From Thalassiosira profunda (taxonomy: Eukaryota; Bacillariophyta; Thalassiosirophyceae; Thalassiosirales; Thalassiosiraceae), in NCBI GenBank assembly GCA_036939355.1, contig JALLAP010000079.1:1-38708 (forward strand): a stretch of DNA of 38,708 bases, in the 5' to 3' direction. Shown piece by piece: positions 2,798-37,536 of this stretch (its first letter is position 1; each line of letters begins with the position of its first letter). The position numbers were made by a program, and so were the translations under genes. The notes under the pieces were generated by a model, which had not been told where the DNA came from, ran no database searches, and saw nothing but the letters and a program-made list of their open reading frames with translations.

Positions 2798-3506
2798 ATG
2801 CTCAGCTCCCTCGCCCGCACCGCCTCCCGCGCAGCCGTCTTGCGCGCGCCCGTCGCCCAGGCCGTCGCGGCAAGATACGCCGGCCGGTTCATGAGCGCCC
2901 AGCCCTTCGCCGTCGACGCTCCCGACGGCGAGCACGACCTCCAGGACGTGGTGCGTGTGTCTATGATGGGATCCGGTTTGCAATAGTCGTCGCCTCGTCC
3001 AGATTTGGCTGGTGAATGTTTGGCGTTCTCGTTTGCAAGCGTTGGCTCGCACAGTTCTGCCTGACCCACCATCTCTCTCTTTCGTTCAATCTCCGCGCCT
3101 CACATTCTTCTTTCGGACTGTTGGTACACTGCAGGAGGAATCCACCTCGTTCGCCAAGCGGGCCGTCGACGTCGCCGCCGTCTCCGAGGACGCCGCGGCC
3201 ATCAACGAGGTCCACGACGCCGTCCTGAAGAACAAGCTCTTCGCCGTCGATGCGCCCGACGGTGAACACGATTTGGAGGACGTGGTGAGTTTTGATCTAT
3301 CGGTGGATATGTGCCGGAGATTTGTGTTTGGAGCGGATTGCTAACCAACACGACCGCGTGCGCCGCAGGAGGAGCACAGCCGGGGGGTCAAATCCATCAT
3401 CGACGAGGCGAGCATCTTTGAGAACCCCGACGAAGTGCACGCGCAGCAGGCCCTTCGGAAGGGCGTGCTCAAGGAGGCGAACAACACCGTCCAGCACGAT
3501 TTGTAG
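2798..3506 (+). CDS. Small mitochondrial-type AVDAPDG-module protein, copy 2
   Basis: Exons 2798-2950, 3135-3284 and 3369-3506 are all phase 0 and give 146 aa. Donors are GTGCGT and GTGAGT; acceptors are CTGCAG and CCGCAG. The start context is AAAACG ATG C. The N-terminus (MLSSLARTASRAAVLRAPVA) is a typical Arg/Ala/Ser mitochondrial presequence ending near RYAGRFMSA. It is followed by FAVDAPDGEHDLQDV and, in exon 2, FAVDAPDGEHDLEDV. Exons 2 and 3 begin EE and contain similar helical stretches (INEVHDAVL; VKSIIDEASIFENPDEV). It matches the minus-strand neighbour exon for exon, so both the gene model and the paralogy are firm. No catalytic motif is visible and no function is assigned. Confidence 0.82.
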
Positions 3507-3740
3507 GAGAATTGAGAGAATGGTTGGCCAAACGGGGAAAGGGAAGGAGGATCAGAGGTTTTGTTTAGGGGGTTCCTTTGCCCGTGCTAGGACAACGTAC
3601 AGTGCTTGTTACATTGCCCAACACCCCCCCTGGAAGGTCTTTCTGTGGCATCATCAACCCTGTCGCGTAGTGGGGAGGGACCCACGAGCGCCCCAAACCA
3701 AAAACTTTCAAATACTGGCGAAGTGGCCAACCCAGCAGCG

Positions 3741-3870
3741 TTCAAAATTTCAAACAATAGGGGGGGCGAGATTTAAAATTTCAAACAACTGTCAGGGCGA
3801 GATTTAAAATTTCAAACAACTGTCAGTCCACTTTTCAAAATTTCAAACGACGCCATCCCGATTTCAAACA
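3741..3870. repeat. AATTTCAAACAA repeat cluster with a 31-nt tandem pair
   Basis: A 31-nt unit starting GGGCGAG and continuing ATTTAAAATTTCAAACAA is repeated exactly at 3764-3794 and 3795-3825. It is flanked by further partial copies of the ATTTCAAAC core at about 3746, 3840 and 3861. The block differs in composition from its surroundings. It lies between a host-like gene and the Helitron-like gene, so it may be an element terminus or subterminal repeat. Confidence 0.7.
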
Positions 3871-4052
3871 ATGCCGTCGCTGTCTTCTCAATGGAGCAAA
3901 TGTGAGGCTGAAAAGCAGTGTCGCAAGACAAGAATTCACATACTAATTCCTATTTACAAAATTCACGGCATTCTTTTTTACCTCCCCGCCCCCTCTCACC
4001 CTCCTGCTCCTCTCTTCTTCTCCTCTCTTCTTGCAACACAAAAAAACGGACC

Positions 4053-4109
4053 ATGTGGGCGGTCCACCTCGATGACAGCCCTTCGACGGCGGCTGCTGCC
4101 ATGAATTGA
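4053..4109 (+). other. Short upstream ORF before the giant gene
   Basis: ATG at 4053 opens an ORF (MWAVHLDDSPSTAAAAMN) that closes at 4107-4109, 12 nt before the main start. If it lies in the mRNA leader it would reduce initiation at 4122. Whether it is transcribed is not known. Confidence 0.35.
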
Positions 4110-4121
4110 AGAGTCGTCGTC

Positions 4122-7100
4122 ATGGCGAAGAGGGGGGTAAGGCGAAAATCTGCCTCCCAACTGAGGGCGGATCTTGATGCGTGGATTGACGAGCAACCCT
4201 ACAGCCTCCTCGAGATCGAGGACGGCTATCGTGAGTATCGCCGCCTGACGAAAAAGTGCAAACAAAATGAAGCAACGGAGGACGACACGCGCCGCATTCA
4301 AGAGCTGGAGCCATTGAAGAAAATTGGAAAGAATCTGGAGACAAGGAGGGGCGCTATTGCAAAGAGGGAGCGCGAAGAGCAGGCCGCGGCGTCCACTGAC
4401 ACGTCCCTCCCGTCTGCGTCCGCGGCGTCCACAACATCATCTTCGACCGGCAGCAGCACCCCTGCAACTTCCGACAATGGCAATTTGTCGGCATCCACGT
4501 CCTCCAATTTGTCGACGGGCACGACGGCCGCCCGTCCAGCTTCTGCCACCCTTTTGGTTGAGCCATCGTCATTGGTTTTGTCCCCGGGCCCGTCGAGGCA
4601 GGCCACTGCTGATCGAACCCTGACCGCCAACGACGTCTCCAACGCCTGTGCTGGTGCGCTCCGTCCAAAGAAAAAAGGAAAAAGGCTGGCGGATCTTGAA
4701 AGTGACTCTGACGACGATGAACCTCTCACATTTGCTCAGGCTCGGGAGTCGAACCTTGAGGCACGACGGGATTGGGATCGCGAGCGCCAGGGGGGCACCG
4801 CTGTTCCATCCACTTCTTCACAACTGACTCGCAAGCGCCCATCTCCACAGGGGGGCTCTGTCGATGTTCCACCCATTTCTCGTGCACGACGTGCACCGGC
4901 AGTAGAGGGCGAGAGCAATGCCCCCGCTGCGCCAAGTGGTGCACTAACAAACAATGCATTGGCCCTTGCAAATTCTCAGCAGAGCATGGCGTTATTGCGT
5001 GCAATGTTTCCGAACCGCGACCCTGACGAAATCACACGCGCATTTCGTGCATCGAATGGCGATGTGCAGCGCGCAGTAGATCGACTGCTTAGTTTAGATG
5101 CGGGTGGTGCATTTTCCAACAGAATGGAATTGGACGACGGACACAATACACGCGCATCTCACGCCCAAGGCGGATGGTCAATGCCGCCATTAGTAGTTGC
5201 ACTGGAGGGTGTTTTTGAGGATTGCACGTGTCGCGAGTGTCACAATTCGATATGGTCAGACGCGAAGTCCATAAAGGTGCACGATCCCACACTCCCCTTC
5301 TCGACCCCGGATGATTGGTGCCACCTGAATTGTTGGCCAGCCCAGCACCCTTTCATTGCAGGGTTGTTTTCCGGGGCACAGGAGGATGGCGTGCGTGTGC
5401 TGGATGCACTGCACAATCAGGTGACCGCCAATTCGACCCTCTTTTCCGGGTGGCGCGAGTTGGAGTGCTCCCATCGATGGAAAGTGCTGCTGCGCATATT
5501 TCAGGTGCACTCCAATTCCTTTGATGTCAACTTGGGCCATGTTGTGCGCACGATGCCCTGCAATCGATGCACCATTTGCCGCAGTCCAAAGTGGTGTTCG
5601 TACTGCCATTTTGAATGCGCCCATCCGGAATTGCCACTTCTCCCATGCCCCAAGCCGAACTGCGACAAGAAAATGCATCATCTCTGCCAGTTTTTGTTTC
5701 AGCAGAGGCACAATACGAACCATCTCCCTCATCAATGCGCCCTGTGCCACGACGACGCCAATGGCATGCGAATGCGAACTCAGCCAAACCACCACCACCG
5801 CAATCAACACCATGCTCCACCGCCAGCGTCGAGCACCGGTGAACCCGAAGATCTATGCGGGCTTTCCGAGAGCAATATCTTGACCGCTGAAGAAGAGGAA
5901 CGGCTCCTAGCGGAGAGGATGAGGGCGGCTGCTGCTGATCTCTATCCCAGTACTGAGTCTGCTGCTCGCTCGACGTCGCGCCGTCGTCCAACTGCGCCAA
6001 CTGCGACGGAGCGGCCATCTAGGCCATCCTCCACGCAGGCTCCGGGCCATGGGCAGCGATCATCGTCTGCAACAGCCACGCGCCGTCCGGAAACGCGTCC
6101 ACCGGAGGAGCATCGAAGAACGGCCAATTCGGCGTCGAATCTCTCTGCGAACGAATGTCGTAAGCGCTTTGCGATGATCGTCGCCTTTCTTGTGTACAAT
6201 ACAATTGCAGCTAATCGAACCTGCTCCCTCTTTCTTTCCAGGCGAAATGGAGTGCAGCAATTGCAAGCGTGTCCAATACGAGGAGGACCCCGAATCCTTC
6301 TACTGGATCACGTTTCACACCGTCAGCTCTGCCGACATCCGCAAAGCGACGAACAAACTCCAATTCATCCGACAGAAGAAATCCAACCCTGACGATTACA
6401 ATCTGTGCGACGAATGCTATCGCTTTGTCAGTGGATCAGACGACTTCAAGCACTTGTGGCCCAGCTTCATGTACTCTATTCTGGCCAGGAAGATAAAGCC
6501 CAAGGTTGGACCCAGCTACTTCACCAATCAGGTCTACTGTGGGGACCAGATCTGGCGAGCCTTCCCCAAGACCATGCGCCCGTGGTGGCTGCCTCTCATT
6601 CGTCGTATTCAGCACCATGGGGTGCACCCCTTTCAAGGATGCGATTTGGAGACGCCTCCGCCCATGTTCGAAGATTTGACGGTCGACCTGCATCGCATGG
6701 AGGAAAATCTTGCCTCGGGCAAGCAAGCGAGCCTCGTCGAGTCGCTGAACGACGAAAAGCTGATGTTGCCCAACATTTTGTGCCCCTTCGGATGCACGGA
6801 GTTTTGTCGCAAGGCGCAGTACGCTCCGCTGGACGTGATCCTTCAGCGATACCTCCTCAAAGTCAACTTGCCCATGGTCAACGGTGACCGATATCGTCAT
6901 TTTCACTCCATGGCCGATACTTACTTTGGCGTTCACAATGGCTTCGCGGGCATTCTCCTCAATGAAAATTTCCAAATGAAGCCGACGATAATAATGACCG
7001 ATGACGGCCCCCAGGTTTGCACGTGCGATCGCCATGGTGGTGGAGACGATCATCTGCGCCTTTACCCTCCATTGCCACTCTACGTTGGATTGAGCGCCCA

Positions 7101-10100
7101 CCAATCGGACCAGCTGAGTCACTGCACTTCGAACCCACGCGTTGCTCGCCCAGTCGTTGCGAAACAGTACAACACCACCCAATCAATGGCGCGGCACGTA
7201 GGAGGATACGATGGACTAGACACGTTCAACGTTGGCACCCACAGCGATTGGAGCAAGCCGTCGGATCTTCTAGCGAGGCACGAATCAATGTCTCTCTATG
7301 GCCGACAGGACATTGTCCATCTGCTTTCGCGAAAGGTGGAGTCCGGCCAAGTGTCGCCGGAGCTGGCTCACAGTCTCATTGAGATGTCGAAGCATCATTT
7401 CCCTCCCGGCTCTCTGCAGCATTTGATGCAAGGGGCCACCTTCGTCCCCTTCGAGGATAACATCGCCATGCATATGGAGCAAATGTCAGAGGACGACGGA
7501 AGCGGGACGATCAGGGCCATTAACAGCCGGAATGAAATTGTCACGTGCCGCCGCGGGTGGCCGCGTGGGATCAATAGAGTCCAGATGGAGGACAGCAGTG
7601 GCTTTGGCTACCAGTTTCGATCAATCCCCTGCCTTTCAAAGGGCGGGCCCCCTCTCATGATGCCGTGGACGTTGATTGGAATCCTGAGCACCGTCAAGGA
7701 ATTGTGGGCGGCCGTGGATATGAAGCCGACTCCTTTCGACCACCAAGGCTGGGAAGGTTGGCTGCTGCCGTACATCCAGCAATTCATGTTCCAATTCGAC
7801 ACGCAGCGCATGGACCTTCGTTCTCCCTTCAAACGGCGAATCAAGAACCAATCGCAACTCGCGAGCGTTGTCACCGACCGCTTCGCACTGCCTCCCCTCG
7901 AACCCGGCGCGCCTCCCGACCCCAGTTTTGTGTACAAATTCTCGCACCAATTCATGGGGCAGCTGTTCTCTCCTGTTGATTATCCAACTGTCTCAGTCCA
8001 ACCCTCTCTGGCCGATGCGCTCTCTGAGGATGACAGTTTCTACGACGACAAGAATGTGATAATTGTGGTCTCTCCAGGCATGCCGGACGCTATTGGCAAT
8101 GACACCCCGAATCCAGCGACTGCGACGAACCTCAGGTTGGACAACGGCACATTGTTCGAGCTGCGGACTGTGGTGTTGCTGAAGGCCGAGAAGAGTTCTT
8201 CCCGTCGAGAGCCAAATCGTCGAAGCGCTCGTCAGGCAACATCTGAAATTCGTTACGGGACGCCTAGCAAGTTCGATGGAAAGATTTGGATGCGCCATGG
8301 CGGCTCGCAATACCAAAACTTTTGGCAGCAGGGGCGATCGGATTCCATACCCACCCAGTGCCACGAACCTATCCTGGATGCGATCGACGCCTGTTGTTCT
8401 TCCGAGGAAGATAGGTTATACTTCATCCAGCACGTGTTGGTGTTCGTCAAAGAGAGGTCCCCGGACGTCGATCAGTGGGGTCTCAAGGTCTTCCAAAATC
8501 TCGGTGGCAAAACCCACGTCCAATGCCAATGCATCAATTTTCCTTTGATTCCATCGAACAAAGCGCGCGAGCAAAAGCCCCTCTGCATAAAGTGCGGCCA
8601 GCGGAAGGAAACCTACGTCTGCTGCAACCAATCGTGTGTCACTCGCTTGTGCAAGCGGTGTTACGACGAATACCCCGTGGCCAACGTCACTATGGTGAGC
8701 CCAAGCGAATTGGTCGACAGCGCTCGCGCCACCTCCAACGGAGGCAACCCGCACGAGGATGGCAAAGACGACGTCGACGACGACGATGAAGGTGGCAGGA
8801 CAGGTGGCAGGACAGAGGAGTTGATCGACGTTGACCTCTCGCTCTCCATTCCGTGGAGCTTCGACTGGGATGGGCCGCCGACGCTTCACGCCACGAACAC
8901 CTGCGCGATGGATACGGCGTTGATGGCACTGTACTTCATTAGAAAGTACGAGGATGGAATGTCAATGGCATTTGCAGCAGAAGAGGAACTCACGAATGTG
9001 CTCAACCTCATCGATTGCCGGGAGTACGCGGCAGCGCGATTCCAATGGATCGAATTCAACGAGGCAGAGGCAGGTCACTTGAGAGGCAACGGGAGCGTGG
9101 TCCTGAGCAAGACGCCAAGGAACGACGCCGTCGATCTCTGGGACTGCAAAGGCACTATCGGGGACAACATTGCTTTGATCCAGATGTTCCAATTTCAACT
9201 GCAGCTCGATTTTGGCCCCTGCAGCTGCGCCAGCGACTGCTGCTACGAAGAGGAGTACTCCACACGCAGCCGACCTGATCCAACCGATCCCGAGAAGCGC
9301 AGACCCATTCAACCGCTGCGGCCTGATACTGCAAGAAGGATCGATGTGCCACGCAGTGAGACGATGCGGATGCAACAATACATCGACAAGGAGTACCCGG
9401 ATGGGTTCCGAGATGACGTACCTTGTGGCTACCAAACGGGCTACAAATCGGTGGAGTCGTCCAATAGGCTGGCCGATGCCAACAGCGGCAGCGACAGTGA
9501 GTTGGAATGCCTGGGAGCTGTGCCAAATGGCACCGAACAGGTTTGGATGTGCGAAGGAAGGCGACCACTGCGAAATGCCGTTGTCAACCACCCACTGCTC
9601 CTTCAGATAAATATCCCTGTTGCCGGCGAAGAGCAATGCAAGCGTGTGAGCAACATCGCGCATCAATTGCGAATTGGCAGCCACATGTACCTACTAGTGC
9701 AAGTGAACCTCACGGACAGCTTCCATTTCTGCGGCATCACCTTGGTCCGGGGCAAGTATCTCTTCTACGATGGCATTCGTGGGGACAATCGGGCAAAGTG
9801 GGTGGACGTCAATGATGCCTATCCCTCCGGCTATTACGTCAGCAGCCTCTGGTATCGCCGCGTTGACGAGGAGGAAGACAACCAGCGGTACCAAGAGGAT
9901 GGCGAGCTGGGAGTGCCAGCTGAAGGTGGCAACGACGACGAAGATGTCGATAGCTTGTTCGAATCTCTGTCGACTGGGAGCAGAGAGGAAGCCGAAGATG
10001 ACAATGAATCTGAAGAAGCAAAGGACGACGAAGACGATGTGAGCGACGCGTTTGACGAGGAAGAAGATTTAGGAGATCGATTTGCAGCGCGTGTGGAATA

Positions 10101-13100
10101 TTCAGACATGGCCAATGTCTTGACTTACAACGACGTCGATGGCTCGCATGACCGGACGGAAGACAATGTCGATCGCGATTTGGGCTTCTTCACTACTCAT
10201 GCCGGAGACGTCCCTCTGAGCGTCGAGCACCACCCTTCGATGGATCAAGTGCACGGCTACTGCCTGTACAACCTAGCAGCGGTGTGTACAAATCGGCGCG
10301 ACCAGCGAATTCGAGGCACCCACAGTCAGCAGCACTTCATTCAGCGTCTTTGCGCCACCACCCCCGGCCAATCGACGCCTATTCTGAGCTTGGATCAGTT
10401 GCTCTTTCCACGGATATTTTGGGCTTCCGCCTCTTCGGATGCGTACGCCATCCTTGGGGCAGTGCCCACCTCGTGGTATGCCCATTCTTCTCACCCTTTT
10501 GGGTTTGCTGGCGTCGTTGATATGGTCCGATCGCGCATCACTGCCTTTGGGAGCCTCACTGGCACCGACCCCCACTATCATCGATATGTGTTTGATTTGC
10601 TGGCCAACAAGCAGCTGAGCAGAGCCGATTCTCGACAGATCATCAACCGCGGCTTTCAGGTCGACGCCAAGAGCCCCACCGGATTGGCCGTTCGCAACAG
10701 CAGTCAGGGTGGCAGCAACCTCACTGAGAGCGTCGATAGTCAAGCAATGGTTAGAGGCCTTGCTGCATCGCAGGAATTCATCCAATGGAATGTCTTCTTG
10801 ACGTTCACCAAGAACGACTCTGAGACTCCGGGCATTCAATTCTTGCATCACTGGGTGCGAGGCGGCGATTGGTCGGCCAAGATTGCTGATTTCGACAAGC
10901 TGACGCCACTCCAGAAGGAAGAATACTGTCGCAGCATGGCCGAAGCATCGGGCCCGGTCATCTTGCGCAACTGGGTCGAGGTCCGCACGCTGGTGCTGAA
11001 GTGGATCAAAGAGCACATTACGTTCCTTGGATCGACCGTTGCCATTTTCTCTCGCGACGAATACCAAGAGAAGTCTGGAAATCATTTCCACGAGCACGCT
11101 GTCATTGCAGTGGACAACAGATCCGCGAACGAAGACACAAATCGCTTCATCGAAGATCTTTTGCGCACTTCCGTGATGGAGGTGGTCAAGACGGAGGATA
11201 TCGAGTCTTTGGTCGCAGAGGGTTTGCTGTCCAAAGCGGAGGAGGTTCACGAAATCACTCGCCTTGCCTCTCGACTTTTGCCCCACACGTGCAGCGACAG
11301 GTGCAGGCGTCGTATTGGTCCCGGCGATGGTCCGGAAAACTTTCGCTGCAGGAAGTTGCATTCGGTCAAGGCCTCCCCTGATCCAACGACCCACCAATAT
11401 GTCCCACTGAACGTCCAACTGTCGGACGAGTCCATCGCTGCTCTTTCTGAATGTGGTTTGTGCACCACGTCCGAGTTTGGGGAACACGAATTCAGCCACT
11501 CTTTCTTCAGCCCCAAGCGCCACATCCCTCCCTGCATGCCAAATGCCACCTGCAACATGTCGCCCGTGTATTGCCCTTTGTTTCTGCTGCTGCGGTCCAT
11601 GTGCAACGCCCAGGCCATCCCTAGCGAGCAGGGCGGGTCGTTGGCCAAATACATTCTCAAATATTGCGCAAAGTTCGACCAATCGAACCAAGCCACGGCA
11701 TATGTGGACATCCACACGGGCCACGTTCAGGTGGGGCAACGTTTTCTGCACAATACCAAGATAGAGTCGTCTCGAATTAACGAGCAGCGTGCTGCGCAAA
11801 ATCGACGGGACCGCCACCATCCGCACTGCCGCGACATTCCAATGATGGAGATATACCAGCTCATGCTTGGTCTTCCAGAGGTTACCACGAATCTGCGCTT
11901 CATTCCCATTTCTTCTCTCTCGTTCGAGAGCCGCGCCATGCACAAAGTGAAGCTCAAGTTGGACGGGTCTGTGCGACGACCGAGAGGGAGCGACGGGGGC
12001 GACGAGGCGGAGAATCCCATGGACCTCGACAACAATGCGGACGCTCACGTGTCGGGCATCCCCTCCAAGCGCGTTCGCGAGCTGGAAATGCTCGACCTGC
12101 ACGAAGCTCAGCACTTGACCCCCAACCAAGAGATGATCGCCCGCGACAAGCGTGGAGGGTTTCGCACCTACGACATGATCTCGGTCTTTGGGCTTCGTCC
12201 GCCGGAGCTTACGTTTGTCGCACAGAATCCCAAACAGTACTTTCGGCTGTTTCACATCGAGGATTCCGACACTGTGTCCGAGACCGATATGGTACGATTG
12301 CTGCACAAGGACTTGCACCTGTGCGATTGGATCGACTGCTTGGGCAGGAAGGTCCGTTTGCGTCGAAATGCGCTCCGGGAAGTGGAGGAGCTTGCCAATG
12401 CCAATTTGAACGACAGCGTCTCTTTGTCGGACGACGCATCTCGGCGGGCGTTTGGTGTGCAAATGAACAATCTGATACTCGATTTGGTGCGCTTTGCGCA
12501 AATGGAACGCTCCGAGCGAACTCCCTCTCAGTGCAATTGTGTGGAAAGGCTCGTTCTCCACGATGGCATGGATCTGCTGCCCATACCGGTGTTCACCCAG
12601 GTCAATCCCTTCAACACGCACCAATTCTTCGTCCACGTTGTACTGTCCATGGGCAAGTACATCACGGAGATCGACGTGCTCCAGCACGCAAGCCCACGCG
12701 AATGTCTGAGGCGAGCACACCTCATTGGGTCCGAGACAGACCCTGAATCGTTGCGCGGTTATGTCAACGATCTGCTCCGTCGATACGTCTTGAACCAAGT
12801 GGTGTATTACTCCAACTCGTTGCGCAAGTCGGACAGCTTCATCGTTCAGGCGAAGAGGGTGTTCGAAGACATCATCATCGAAGAGGCCTTTCCCACCAAT
12901 GAAATACCCTTCATTCTGGCCGACATGTATGACAGCGCCGATCAGAAAAATGTGGAGCAATGGAGATCGACGACCTCGTCTCAGCTCACCTCTGTTTTTA
13001 CGACGCTTCGCTCGATACCCAATCTCCCCCTTCGCGATCAGGTCGAAGGTGCAACTCGCTTCGCGCCCCTGAATTGGGATCCTCACGAGGCAATGTCTCA

Positions 13101-15213
13101 GGCGACCGCGCAAAGCAACGAGTCTTTCGTAGAGCAGCGGCTTGTGATTCGTTCGTACAAAATTGCCATAGACAAGTACAGAGGCGCGGCCACTGGGCAT
13201 CGTTCCCACACCTACACCAAGAACGTCATTGCCGAAGGCGCTCCAGGCAGTGGCAAGTCGTTTTGCGGCCAATACGGACTTCTGTACGCCATCTCGCAGG
13301 GCTTGCGCTGTTTGTCGACGGCTCTGATGGGCGCCAGGGCGACCTTTTTGGGCGGCACCCATTGGCACAAGCTCTTTTGTTTGCAGAAGCAAAATGGCCC
13401 ATCCCATCCGTACCGCGTGGCTGAGCTGGCAATGCAGCGAATTATGCGCAAGCCGACGTCGTTGCACGCGCTTCTGACGGTGGACGTGCTGTTCCTCGAC
13501 GAAGCGGGGCAAATTTCGGCCGAAATGATGGCAGTATTCGACATCATCATGCGCAAGCTGCGAAGTTCGCAGATTCCATTCGGTGGGGTCCTCGTGATTG
13601 GAACGATGGACCACAGCCAGATCCAACCAATACTGGCCCTTCCGTTTCTCATGTCGTCGTTGGTCATGACGTGCTTCTATTGCGTGCAATTGCGACACTC
13701 CGTCCGCGCGGCCGAAGATGCGGCGTTTTGCGAATTCCAAGAGCTGATTCGATTGACCCCAGCGCAGCTGTTGAGTGACGAGCTCATAAGTGGAGACGAC
13801 TTCGATTCTATGACCCGGAAGGAGAGGTTCGAGTTCCTTGCCAGCACGCTTTTCGAGTACGTCCCATCCATGTCCCACGAGCGCGTGCTGCCATCCTACT
13901 CCAGAATGTACGCAAAGAAGAAACCCGTCAAGAGCGCCATTGCCATGTTCACCTCAGACCTCCAGAGGCGCATGGAGCTGCGCCGCGATGCAACTGGCGA
14001 AGAGTTTCACGTGCGCCCGGCCGTAGACAGCCAGGTCAGAGATCGAACGCTGGCCGAGTACACCGCAGCCTCCGCCACGACGACGGCGTGCCTCAACACC
14101 CACCTGCGGGAGCCCCAAACGTTGGTCTTCTATCGTTTCGGCGTGTACGAATGCACCACCAACGAAACAAACGGGCGGTACAATCAATCGACGCTGGCCA
14201 TTTTGTTCGACCTTCCTTCTGCCGATGTTGTGCGATCGTTTGGCCAGTTCCCAATCCTCATCGCTCCACCGGGGACACAGCACATCGATTTTTTGGAGAA
14301 CGAAGCGCAGCGCCCCTCGAAGGATCAATTGCTGGCCGATGGTTGGAAGGAAGTGCAAATCGGCGTGGCGCCCGATCGTCCCATCACCGTAAAGGGCGGC
14401 TTTCAGGCGAAGCGGAAGCAGTATTCGCTCAAGCACATTGGTGCGCTGACGATCGACAAGTCGCAGGGAGATACTCTCCACTCCGGATTGGCCCTTGAAA
14501 TTTCGTCAGAAGAATCCTGCCCCTTCAATCGAGAGCAGATCATCGTCGCCACCAGCCGGCCTCCACGCGCCAACCTGCTCGTCATCGTTGGATCTCAATC
14601 CTTTGCAATCAACAAGATGTGGGAGCTCATAACGACCGGCAATCAGTGGACTCACATGACGGAGAGCATATTGCGCATGATCACCATCAATGCCGACGAT
14701 GGCCCCGATAGTTCCTGGAACACGCTGAACATCCCCGAAATATTCCCCTTCCGCGTCAGCGACTGCATCCTGCCGACGGATAACTCCGGCTTCGTCTACC
14801 TTTTGATCTCGATGAGGAACCCCGACTTCACGTACATTGGGCAAACGGAGAATCTCTCGCAGCGGCTTCGCCGGCACAACTCGGGCAGCGGATCTCACGG
14901 CACTTCAGATCCAGCAAATCGCCCTTATTACGTGGCGGCGTACATCAGCGGTCTGTTGCACTGCAACACGAGCGATCGCATGTCACTGGAGGCCACCTGG
15001 CGCCACTATCGGAATCAGGGCAACCTTGACACGCCTCTGTCGATCGTCAATGCCGGACAACGCGTTGTGCAGGGCTACAACGAGAATGCCGAAACCGTCG
15101 GTTCATCGGATCGCATAAATTTTGTGCGCCTAATCAGCAACGCATCGCCCGGGCCCCGTGCTCGTGGTGTCGTCGAGGAGAGAGCGTTGCTACGCGTTGC
15201 TTTTGAAGAATGA
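4122..15213 (+). CDS. Giant Helitron-like Rep/PIF1-helicase protein with USP-like peptidase and C-terminal GIY-YIG nuclease
   Basis: Exons 4122-6159 and 6242-15213 join in phase (intron GTAAGC to TTCCAG) to give 3669 aa with no stop. In order: CUE/UBA-like segment (285-327); Cys/His fingers (368-410, one PARP-finger-like, and 481-545); CxxC pair 684/687 with 735/738; Cys-rich knuckle (1461-1490); SIM-like ELIDVDL; USP-like Cys box NTCAMDTALMALYF (Cys1567) with His box HFCGITL (His1841) and Asp1856; acidic stretch (1890-1960). The Rep core follows: FLTFT (2198-2202), NHFHEH (2293-2298), YILKYCAK (Tyr2483, Tyr2487). A PIF1-type helicase has GAPGSGKS (Lys3018), FLDEAG (Asp3099-Glu3100) and LTIDKSQGDT (Lys3419). 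The GIY-YIG nuclease has VYLL (Tyr3532), YIGQT (Tyr3544), QRLRRHN (Arg3554) and Glu3596. Rep plus PIF1 helicase defines Helitrons (rolling-circle transposition). Termini were not found, so mobile versus domesticated is open. Confidence 0.85.
6160..6241 (+). other. Intron joining the two halves of the giant gene
   Basis: The intron starts GTAAGC at 6160 and ends in a pyrimidine tract plus CAG at 6241 (82 bp). A CTAATC branch-like site lies at about 6211. Exon 1 leaves one base (C6159) that is completed by G6242 and C6243, which restores the downstream frame exactly. The two long frames overlap at 6190-6392 only because of this intron. Confidence 0.85.
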
Positions 15214-33960: not shown

Positions 33961-36900
33961 ATGGTCCGCCGCCTCGTCTCCTGCAGAGAATGCCGGGCGC
34001 GGTTCGCCACCAAGTCGGGTGAGTCGTCCTCTTCTGACGAAATATCAATTTGCTTCGCCGCGGACTGCTAATTTATTGCTCGCCTGCCACAATGCTAATA
34101 TATCAGGATCGAAGCTCTGCCTCTCCTGCCGATCGAACAATAATGAGGAGGGTCCCGTATCCACAAGTGGCGGCCATGAGGGCCTTCCGTCGTTGCCATT
34201 GGATGGCCGCGAGGGGGGCAGCGTCCGATCGGCGGCGTCGAATGATGAGTCGGTGGAGGTCATCTCGATCGGGAGCGACAGCGACGACGAGGAGAGAGGA
34301 GGGGTGACGGCTGCAGCGATTGATGGCAAATCTGCAGCCATTGAGGAGGAACACTGTGCAGGTGCCGGAGCCAGTGGAAAATTGGGGGCCGATGGATCGG
34401 CACACAGCGAGCGGAGGGGCGGCGTGCTGATTGACCTCTCTGAGATGGAAGGCGGTGGCGCCGAGGGTGACACAGAATCGTTGCACGTCGACGGGGGAAG
34501 TCGGCAATCAGTAGAATCATCGTCGGCGGCCTCGTCGGGCATTCCCTCTCCGTGGAAGGCCGCGGACGATGTTTGTGGTGGGATGCAAAACCTTGCCGTT
34601 GCTCGCCCTGCGGGGGCGGAAGCTGATGCTGTTGTTGAGGGGAACAAAACGGACTCCACAATGAATGACGGGCACGGCCAAATTGCTGCAATTCATTTGT
34701 CCGACGAGGGGTCGGTGTCTTCCTTGGAGCCATTTCAATGGGACGAGGATCAGCCGGCAGCAGTGCAACCACCGAACAAAGGGACAAGACCGGTCCGCGA
34801 TGCCGTTGCAGAGCCAAATGTGGCACCGGAAGTGGCAGCCATCGACATATCGGATGATTCGGACAGCGGCGATGATGGCCCACTCGACGACGACGACGAC
34901 GACGCCGACAGTTCCGTTTCGTCCGACGACTCCATTTGGGGCAAGAAAGGATTTGAGTCGAAGCCAAAGCGAAAGGAGAAGGCCGACGACGGCCCTCGCA
35001 ACGAACCGGCCAGCAGAGAAGCGCCGCCCGCAACAGCAAAACCAGCACCGAAAGGCAGGGACGATACGGCCAACAAGCACTTCCACTGCTACCTCCTCCG
35101 CTCCCTCGATCCAAAGCACCCCCTCAAGACGTACATCGGCTTCACCACCCACCCCCAGCGCAGGATACGGCAGCACAACGGCCTCCTCAAGAGCGGGGGC
35201 GCCCGACGCACGAAGCGGTCGGGCCGGCCGTGGACCTTCGTCTGCGTCGTTCACGGCTTCGAGGACAAAATCGCCGCGCTCCAATTCGAGTGGGCGTGGC
35301 AGAACGTCGACAAGTCCAAGTCGTTCCGTGAGGCTGTGGGGGACGACGCCCTCGCGCGGAAATTGAAGCGGCGTCACGGTCCCAAGGCGCGGCTGGACGA
35401 ATTGCGGACACTGCTCAAGGACGCGCTTCCGTTCAGCCTGTATTCGCTCACGGTGTACTTCCCCGAGCGGGAGTATCACAGCATCTTCTCGGGGATGCTG
35501 CGGAGGGGGAGGAACGGCAACCCCTACGTGCGAGACGAGGGCGAGGGAGATGCGCACGATTGTCTGTTAGATATTCAGATCTGCGCGTTGGAGAAGATGC
35601 CGGCCGCGAGGGAAGAGGCGGCGTTGAAGGAGCGGAAGAAGAGGGAGAGGGAGGCGAAGAAATTGAAGAAGCAGCAGCAAAAGAAGGCGGCTGGTGCGGT
35701 GAATACATCGCAGCTGCGGGAGAATGTGGTATCGACAGTCGAGGAAGAAAACTGGTTTGACTTGGTCGACGATGAGGACGAGTCAAAGTGCAGCAGCCTT
35801 GAGTCGGTTGGCATTAGTTTGGATGGGAGCAGCAGAGGCGGCGGGGGCAATCCATTGGATGGGTTTAGCAACAACCTCGCGGACGAGCGCGCCGAGAGGG
35901 ACACTGACCTAGATTGCCTGGGCGAAGAGTTTCTGGGCCTATCGATTGGGGCATCCCCGACAACGCACGGAGAAGAATCAACAAAACCAGCAGCCGCCAG
36001 ATCGAAGTGTTCTACTGCTCTGTCGTTAGATTCCTCCATTGTTGAGGTTGGCAACCAATCATCTGATGATGGCTCTGTTTCTCCCTTTGGGTCGACCAAC
36101 TTGGATCGGGAGCTATCTTTGGCAACGCCAACCAAAGAGTCTGCGCCTGTGGAAGGGGCAGATCGCTTGAACGACGTCGCCAGCCGAAGTAGCAACGACA
36201 GCAGCTCGGTCTCTTCGGACGAATCGATATGGAACAAGAAGGGCTTCGAGGCGAAGCGAAAGGAAGGCCGAATCGAATCTTACTACGACTATCACCGATT
36301 CCAGAATAGAGCGAAGAGTGCCCCGGTCGTCCCGAGCGTCGAAAATGCAGATGACGAGGCCAAACCTGCACCGGAGTCCCTGCCACCGGAGGTTCCCTTG
36401 CCGACGAATGCAACGTGGAGGCTAGTGTTGCTGATGGACCATCGAGAATTCGGATGCGCCAACAACTTCCTCCAGATGGTTGAGCAGAAAATGAACGATC
36501 ACTTTGGTGGGAAGTGCGCCGAGATAACGACGCTTGCCTCTGCCGATTATCTCTACGTTGCCCGCTTGATATCGGACGATACCGGCGAGATTTTGGACGA
36601 GCGGGTGATGGACCTGGTGATTGAGCGCAAGGCCGTGCAAGACGCGTGCCAGTGCCTCATCGCCGACAGCAAGAAGTACAAACCACTGTCGTTCTTCGAA
36701 GCGCAGATGTACAAAATGCAGCACTCGGGCGTTAGCAAGAAGATTTTCTTGATGGAGGGTGAGTTTGCATCAAGCGCTGCCATTGCTTTTGATTCCTGGA
36801 CCCACTAGATAACCCTCGTTCCTTCCCTGAAGGTGACGAGCACAAGACGAAGAACTTCTTCAGTGGGTGCAAGGGGCAAAGAGAAAAGGACATTCGAATG

Positions 36901-37536
36901 AAGCGCGTGAAGACGTTGCGTCTGCAGCTAGCGAACGGGGAGTTCAAGGGCGTCGAGCTGGTGTGCACGAAAAACCGATGGGACTCGATCAAGTGGTTGA
37001 TACAGCAACTCAATTCGTTCCAGCAATCGTTCGATCCGCGGCGACCGCCTACGAAGACGAGGGAGCAGTTGAAGCACCACATCAACGAGCAGATGAAAGC
37101 TCCAACCTTCCTCGAATACCTTCGCCTGCGTTCGATTCCTGGCATTGGCGATGCCAAAGCAATGAAGGTGTGTGTCGTGTGTTTGTGCGTTGATTTTGTT
37201 CTCTCAAGTGCACTCACCAACGCGTTTCATCTATGACAGGTCATCATGGATCCGACCCTCGACTGGGATAAGTCGTTCCTTTCGCCCAGCTCCAGCAAGA
37301 CGTCGAAGGCTACCTTGCAGGACAGGGCAGCATTTTGGAAGCCCCCTTCGGGAACCGCGTTTATCTTTGCGAAGTCTTCGAAGACGAGCGGAAAACAAAT
37401 CCAATCAACTTCGCAGGCCAAACCCAGAAGCAAATGGGCACCGACAAAGACCAAAGACACATCGAAAGCCACAGAGCTGCGCTCCTGGCTGGATGTCGGG
37501 AAGGAAAACAATGGTGGCGCCACTGTCATTAATTAG
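33961..37536 (+). CDS. SLX1-type GIY-YIG nuclease fused to MUS81/XPF-type ERCC4 nuclease
   Basis: Exons 33961-34018, 34107-36758, 36833-37167 and 37240-37536, all in phase, give 1113 aa. Exon 1 plus exon 2 forms a zinc ribbon (CRECRARFATKSG|SKLCLSC). SUMO-interaction-like motifs follow at 71-74 (VISI then SDSDDEE), 126-130 (VLIDL) and 265-268 (IDIS then DDSDSGDD). The GIY-YIG domain has CYLL (Tyr348), TYIGFTTHP (Tyr362), QRRIRQHN (Arg371/372), a VVHGF motif and FEWAWQ (Glu414), as in SLX1. After a basic-acidic linker comes an ERCC4 nuclease: LMDHRE (Asp797), ADYLYVAR (Asp833), VIERKAVQD (Glu859-Arg-Lys861, Asp865). It ends with a helix-hairpin-helix-like RSIPGIGDAKAMK (about 1003-1015) and a polar tail. 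Both nuclease domains lie in exon 2, so the fusion does not depend on splicing. SLX1 and MUS81 cut branched DNA in recombination repair. I see no SLX1 RING finger. Confidence 0.88.

Follow-up and report, generated by a model that had tools for sequence, protein, structure and literature searches.

A predicted diatom protein that unites an SLX1-type GIY-YIG nuclease and a MUS81-type ERCC4 nuclease in a single chain

SLX1 holds the CCD of the scaffold protein SLX4 with its nuclease domain as well as its RING finger (PMC8599992; this and the other sources are cited for individual passages). In plants, according to the passages cited from PMC9071465, the nuclease At-HIGLE has no RING finger and cuts junctions without SLX4, and its authors raise as a question whether such an SLX4-independent SLX1-type nuclease is coordinated with MUS81-EME1. 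For diatoms, the cited passage of a published survey recognises no EME1 (PMC4647503). Here we present a predicted gene of the marine diatom Thalassiosira profunda which encodes an SLX1-type GIY-YIG nuclease domain and a MUS81-type ERCC4 nuclease domain in one chain of 1113 amino acids. It lies on contig JALLAP010000079.1 (C79; assembly GCA_036939355.1, 21.8 Mb), which at its full length of 38,708 bases is the window analysed. A first-pass annotation had proposed a natural covalent fusion of the two nuclease types, and this identity is supported by profile matches, sequence matches in the PDB, predicted folds, a second assembly and unfused relatives that match each half separately. The annotation's remark that it knew of no described protein of this form agrees with the titles and abstract openings of the open-access literature, in which no single-chain SLX1-MUS81 (GIY-YIG plus ERCC4) protein was found.

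The gene consists of four exons on the forward strand (Table 1), separated by GT-AG introns at 34019-34106, 36759-36832 and 37168-37239. Both domains had been placed in a single exon; the whole GIY-YIG domain and the ERCC4 catalytic core (to about residue 903) do lie in exon 2, which is open throughout its 2652 bases, but exons 3 and 4 encode the remainder of the ERCC4 fold together with the helix-hairpin-helix (HhH) tail. The predicted product is identical to P0001, the NCBI entry 'hypothetical protein ACHAXT_007652 [Thalassiosira profunda]', which is located on a contig of 1,301,306 bases and, given that size, belongs to a second assembly, possibly built from the same reads. A hidden assembly join, one of the objections foreseen, is answered by this second assembly and by the zinc-ribbon-like and ERCC4 sequences that flank the GIY-YIG part, which are joined without it in the relative P0002.

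Within the GIY-YIG half, the residues named earlier (Tyr348, Tyr362, Arg371 and Glu414) were confirmed in the numbering of the 1113-residue protein. In the family alignment Y348, Y362, G364, R372 and H376 are conserved in all 60 rows, and R371 and E414 in 59; PMC9071465 describes what this Arg and Glu do in nucleases of the GIY-YIG type. The GIY-YIG hairpin with the conserved Arg and Glu places this half in the SLX1 lineage. A C-terminal RING finger is absent from the fusion, in which CxxC motifs occur only at residues 8 and 24, and the SLX1_C Pfam profile gave no match in the protein at E<=0.1. The RING is likewise absent from 27 unfused SLX1-like proteins, of which P0058 has a single CxxC close to its N-terminus and the other 26 have none, while P0074-P0076, which lie outside this clade, retain RING-type CxxC pairs. 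Because the RING is missing, as in At-HIGLE, we assign this half to the SLX1 lineage as HIGLE-like rather than as an SLX1 of the fungal and animal type. Furthermore, since the unfused relatives also lack the RING and At-HIGLE works without SLX4, bypass of SLX4 probably predates the fusion.

The ERCC4 half carries the D..RE and ERK-x3-D motifs, Asp797 and Glu859-Arg860-Lys861 standing where the annotation had put them, and D797, R799, E800, D833, E859, R860, K861 and D865 are identical in all 33 ERCC4 relatives (collected at E<=0.001, some models being cut at contig ends). We take these eight positions to be catalytic. The two Pfam checks that had been suggested both succeeded, the GIY-YIG score being given in Table 1 and the ERCC4 profile matching residues 822-959 of the spliced protein with 26.4 bits (cut-off 24). 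Profile search, Foldseek and VIA-align all put this half nearer MUS81 than EME1, XPF or FANCM; the top structural alignments to MUS81-EME1 are 16-19% identical, and the predicted model aligns with MUS81 through residue 1024, including the HhH tail, for which no Pfam HhH match was found in the fusion protein. An N-terminal HhH and a winged helix are features of MUS81. Neither gave a Pfam match here, and the upstream region was modelled, from a shallow alignment, as mostly disordered.

The parentage of the segments was traced in windows of 70 residues. P0002, an unfused ERCC4 protein, is the match for residues 2-66 (4.8e-11), residues 327-636 match unfused SLX1-like proteins (best, 81% over 64 residues), windows 601-670 and 631-700 match neither family, and the match to ERCC4 proteins resumes from about residue 661 onward, reaching 82%. 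A profile of the unfused SLX1-like proteins, built from 26 of the 27 (P0053 excluded), aligns to residues 67-667 (positions 6-605 of 657), weakly in its N-terminal part. The parent of residues 67-280 is ambiguous, since GIPSP-type motifs occur in 18 of the 27 SLX1-like proteins (one pattern) and RIPSP in P0002; on the ERCC4 side this motif scan took in 14 of 33 relatives, and that for the zinc ribbon and SSxSSxDSIW all 33. Among these 33 the full zinc-ribbon pattern was found only in P0001 and P0002, and in P0002 (eukprot, MMETSP0737, taxon 385413, Thalassiosira minuscula) the zinc-ribbon start is joined to the ERCC4 end with no GIY-YIG between. The MMETSP set comes from a transcriptome project. 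Because window matches to the two parents alternate, we conclude that an ERCC4 gene has taken up SLX1-type sequence between repeats of a motif. This motif, SSxSSxDSI[WFL], often repeated, precedes the ERCC4 domain in 12 of the 33 family members by one pattern: P0001 (at 288 and 719), P0002-P0007, P0010-P0012, P0029 and P0032. It is possibly a phosphorylated docking motif.

An annotation or expression artefact, in which the halves are made as two proteins with a transcript each or one of them is degenerating, has to be weighed here, and we consider it very improbable. It would fit the facts that the fusion gene is known from genome sequence alone, that two windows at the joint match neither parent, and that codon bias there (600-720) is weak (0.049), yet the highest of the six frames. 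Against it stand the single open exon; the linker of 284 codons (501-784), in which codon bias is positive for the coding frame alone, the other five frames being negative, and which was stop-free in 0 of 2000 base shuffles, so that its open frame is not a matter of chance; the bracketing of the GIY-YIG part by the zinc-ribbon exon and the ERCC4 part; identity of 83-85% and 78% between the two halves and their unfused relatives, with catalytic-motif residues retained; and the identical protein in another assembly. Transcription as one mRNA is what we would predict. A loose pattern for SUMO-interaction-like motifs found four where shuffles averaged 0.63 (4 of 2000 shuffles equal), and a stricter pattern, with less enrichment, found two (61 of 2000 equal), a result that is no more than suggestive.

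The search for the fusion in relatives, as had been recommended, yielded a second case. A GIY-YIG domain like that of the fusion was found in two of the 33 ERCC4 relatives, P0001 and P0032. The latter, on an ENA contig of 4870 bases, comprises the apparent second half of the zinc ribbon, a GIY-YIG domain (47.7 bits) and the start of an ERCC4 domain that is 77% identical to P0001 over 100 residues and scores 15.3 bits, below the cut-off, being cut by the contig end. Among 58 GIY-YIG relatives only P0001 carried an ERCC4 annotation; since P0032 was missed there, the counts of fusions are lower bounds. A protein search with the GIY-YIG region of P0032 returned P0032 alone among 127 candidates.

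Several points weigh against the explanation favoured below. The ERCC4 profile passes its cut-off narrowly and falls to 17.7 bits in the unspliced frame, under the cut-off, and its second-best match is a Ser-rich unrelated chain, mL68 (7.9e-4). The fusion has been seen at the level of the genome, with none seen at that of transcript or protein. Thirty-one of the 33 ERCC4 relatives are unfused, so that the fusion is not essential to the family, and P0032 stops at the end of its contig within the ERCC4 domain. Nor is the absence of unfused copies proven: no unfused orthologue of either half was found in the 21.8 Mb searched, against a published figure of 41 Mb for the genome (PMC11309476, in the passage cited).

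Trees of the two domains bear on whether the fusion had one origin or two. The GIY-YIG tree groups P0001 with the 27 unfused SLX1-like proteins, whose named members are from Discostella, Skeletonema and Conticribra, in a set of 28 (98/96), and P0032 groups with P0074 (99/85); forcing P0001 and P0032 together was 75 log units worse, with an approximately unbiased (AU) test p of 0.0016. The ERCC4 tree gave P0001 with P0002 (99/96) and P0032 with P0004 (98/92), and an AU p of 0.023 for the same constraint. The pair was picked as the two fusions before the final trees, after a first look with FastTree; P0090 was excluded from the second GIY-YIG tree, and a joint alignment of both families, with almost no shared invariant columns, was read as domain misalignment and not used. 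A single ancestral fusion followed by several splits is, in our judgement, unlikely. It would account for the GIY-YIG part lying within the same SSxSSxDSIW repeat tract in both fusions and for P0032 beginning with the apparent second half of the same zinc ribbon; also, the GIY-YIG of P0032 sits on a long branch that pairs with a second long one, as the tree program warned, and its ERCC4 sequence fills only 39% of the columns. Both AU tests reject it, however, the nearest ERCC4 relatives of the two fusions are themselves unfused, and P0074, the nearest GIY-YIG relative of P0032, is unfused and still has RING-type fingers, so that a split product would need to have regained a RING; the match of P0032 to P0074 stops at residue 209, and the RING-type finger of P0074 starts at 212. 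Two origins would allow a bolder proposal, which we put forward tentatively as a possibility short of probable: that diatoms have at least twice built a self-contained junction resolvase needing neither SLX4 nor EME1, each time through insertion of a nuclease of the SLX1 lineage into a gene of the MUS81 type, so that a covalent link took the place of the SLX4 scaffold in two independent cases.

As a joint explanation we hold it moderately probable that this is one diatom protein in which a RING-less, At-HIGLE-like nuclease of the SLX1 lineage and a MUS81-type ERCC4-HhH nuclease work in cis, having arisen by insertion, with their cuts coupled by a tether. Zinc-ribbon-like and SUMO-interaction-like motifs would precede the two domains, between which runs a long Ser/acidic linker that is for the most part disordered, and the SLX1-type sequence would have entered a gene that already existed, within the SSxSSxDSIW tract that precedes its ERCC4 domain. 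By analogy with the families, a Holliday junction or fork would first be nicked by the GIY-YIG domain, after which the MUS81-type domain, held by the tether, would cut the nicked junction opposite. The tether would raise the local concentration over a linker of about 260-285 residues and would replace the coupling done elsewhere by SLX4. Since the survey cited above recognised no EME1 in diatoms, the MUS81-type domain would probably dimerise, via its HhH tail, with itself or with a paralogue encoded on contig C25; nuclease activity, coupling and partner are all inferred. The two nucleases might instead serve separate substrates, the fusion being real but close to neutral or of use only in keeping them under common regulation or in the same place, a reading to which we give rather little credence. 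Most relatives are not fused in this way (31 of 33 in the ERCC4 set, 57 of 58 in the GIY-YIG set), and in P0061-P0072 this GIY-YIG family occurs fused to a methyltransferase of TrmA type instead, so that it evidently fuses readily; on the other side, the same two families were apparently joined twice, and elsewhere SLX1 and MUS81 reportedly act in a common pathway (PMC9071465). Two nucleases tied together by evolution, apparently twice, are strong circumstantial evidence for coordinated action in diatoms, and by the logic of gene fusion the unfused diatom proteins are predicted to interact. A single chain also allows the order and coupling of both cuts to be measured, killing one site at a time, and makes scaffold-free untangling of joined chromosomes testable.

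The genome was searched with both Pfam families and with the fusion protein itself for the separate genes that the annotation had asked after. Paralogues were found for ERCC4 (C25, 60%) and GIY-YIG (C945, 67%), together with an ERCC4 protein of XPF-like make-up (C221), another ERCC4 protein (C1183/C510) and further frames, on C79, C959 and C468, that match GIY-YIG; unfused orthologues were not among them. The Slx4 profile had no match in the 21.8 Mb assembly or in prokaryote control genomes, and EME1-MUS81_C had none in the assembly and none over the cut-off in the controls; as these controls are prokaryotes and no positive control worked, absence of SLX4 and EME1 is not shown. For a canonical RING-bearing SLX1, six SLX1_C matches all fell under the cut-off, the best (C519) resembling by eye a PHD-finger protein. 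The C1183/C510 protein was rejected as canonical MUS81 and left unnamed because, although ERCC4 scores 64 bits, its core has no PDB match at E<=10 and no other MUS81 Pfam domain is present. It has a RanBP2-type zinc finger, its two copies (C1183 2951-7135 and C510) are about 90% identical in DNA, and a frame beside it resembles by eye a sigma-70-type factor.

The C25 paralogue (3328-5280; P0011, ACHAXT_006094) has two RING/PHD-like fingers by eye, with one weak Pfam match, ends in the SUMO-interaction-like VIVID, and in its family alignment one of 24 members matches SLX1_C (4e-4); it is a possible dimer partner of the fusion. The frame on C945 (877-3231), a second SLX1-like GIY-YIG paralogue, matches GIY-YIG and TRAM, is cut by the end of the locus, and forms one clade (97/93) with P0061-P0072, all 12 of which match PF05958. 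Elsewhere in the window, an open frame of 3007 amino acids (6190-15213, forward strand) combines a PIF1-like helicase with a GIY-YIG match at its C-terminal end; large frames on C959 and C468 also match GIY-YIG, which may point to a repeated mobile element. A viral origin of the ERCC4 part was also considered, and none of 61 pattern matches in viral contigs was confirmed.

Table 1. Features of the fusion gene (window positions; residues of the 1113-residue protein)
Feature	Residues	Positions	Strand	Remarks
Exon 1		33961..34018	+	start codon and first CxxC of zinc-ribbon-like motif; 27 residues 74% identical to P0002
Zinc-ribbon-like CREC-x12-CLSC	8-27	33982..34129	+	split by intron 34019-34106
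Exon 2		34107..36758	+	zinc ribbon end, acidic/Ser-rich tract, GIY-YIG, linker, ERCC4 catalytic core; single open frame
First SSxSSxDSIW region	284-312	34898..34984	+	ERCC4-gene type; 58.6-61.5% identity to P0002
SLX1-type cassette (GIY-YIG and C-terminal tail)	327-636	35027..35956	+	homologous to unfused SLX1-like proteins
GIY-YIG catalytic domain	346-423	35084..35317	+	Pfam GIY-YIG 47.7 bits, cut-off 22.6
Second SSxSSDESIW region	719-740	36203..36268	+	ERCC4-gene type; window 691-760 matches P0006 at 47%
MUS81-type ERCC4 nuclease domain	788-969	36410..37029	+	spans exons 2 and 3
Exon 3		36833..37167	+	nuclease domain end and most of HhH tail
HhH-like tail	980-1017	37060..37245	+	exons 3 and 4; structure model
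Exon 4		37240..37536	+	ends in stop codon; identical in P0001

The fusion can be set beside several known systems. Its GIY-YIG half resembles At-HIGLE (PDB 7wme), a RING-less GIY-YIG nuclease of the SLX1 lineage; At-HIGLE, in contrast, is described in the cited passages as a nuclease domain (1-183) and a C-terminal region without known fold (184-368), with no second nuclease (PMC9071465). SLX1-SLX4 of fungi and animals has the same GIY-YIG catalytic residues, but its SLX1 has a RING that contacts the SLX4 CCD (PMC8599992), whereas the fusion has none. Compared with MUS81-EME1, the fusion has no Pfam-detected winged helix or N-terminal HhH and carries a GIY-YIG domain in the same chain, and EME1 is not reported in diatoms in the survey passage cited (PMC4647503). 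The unfused SLX1-like (P0034-P0060) and ERCC4 (P0002-P0031) proteins of diatoms are relatives of the two halves, but as separate proteins; among the ERCC4 ones, P0003 belongs to Cyclotella cryptica. The SMX tri-nuclease (SLX1-SLX4, MUS81-EME1 and XPF-ERCC1) unites the same two nuclease types, but as a complex of separate proteins (PMC5344696, in the passage cited), where the diatom fusion has them in one chain.
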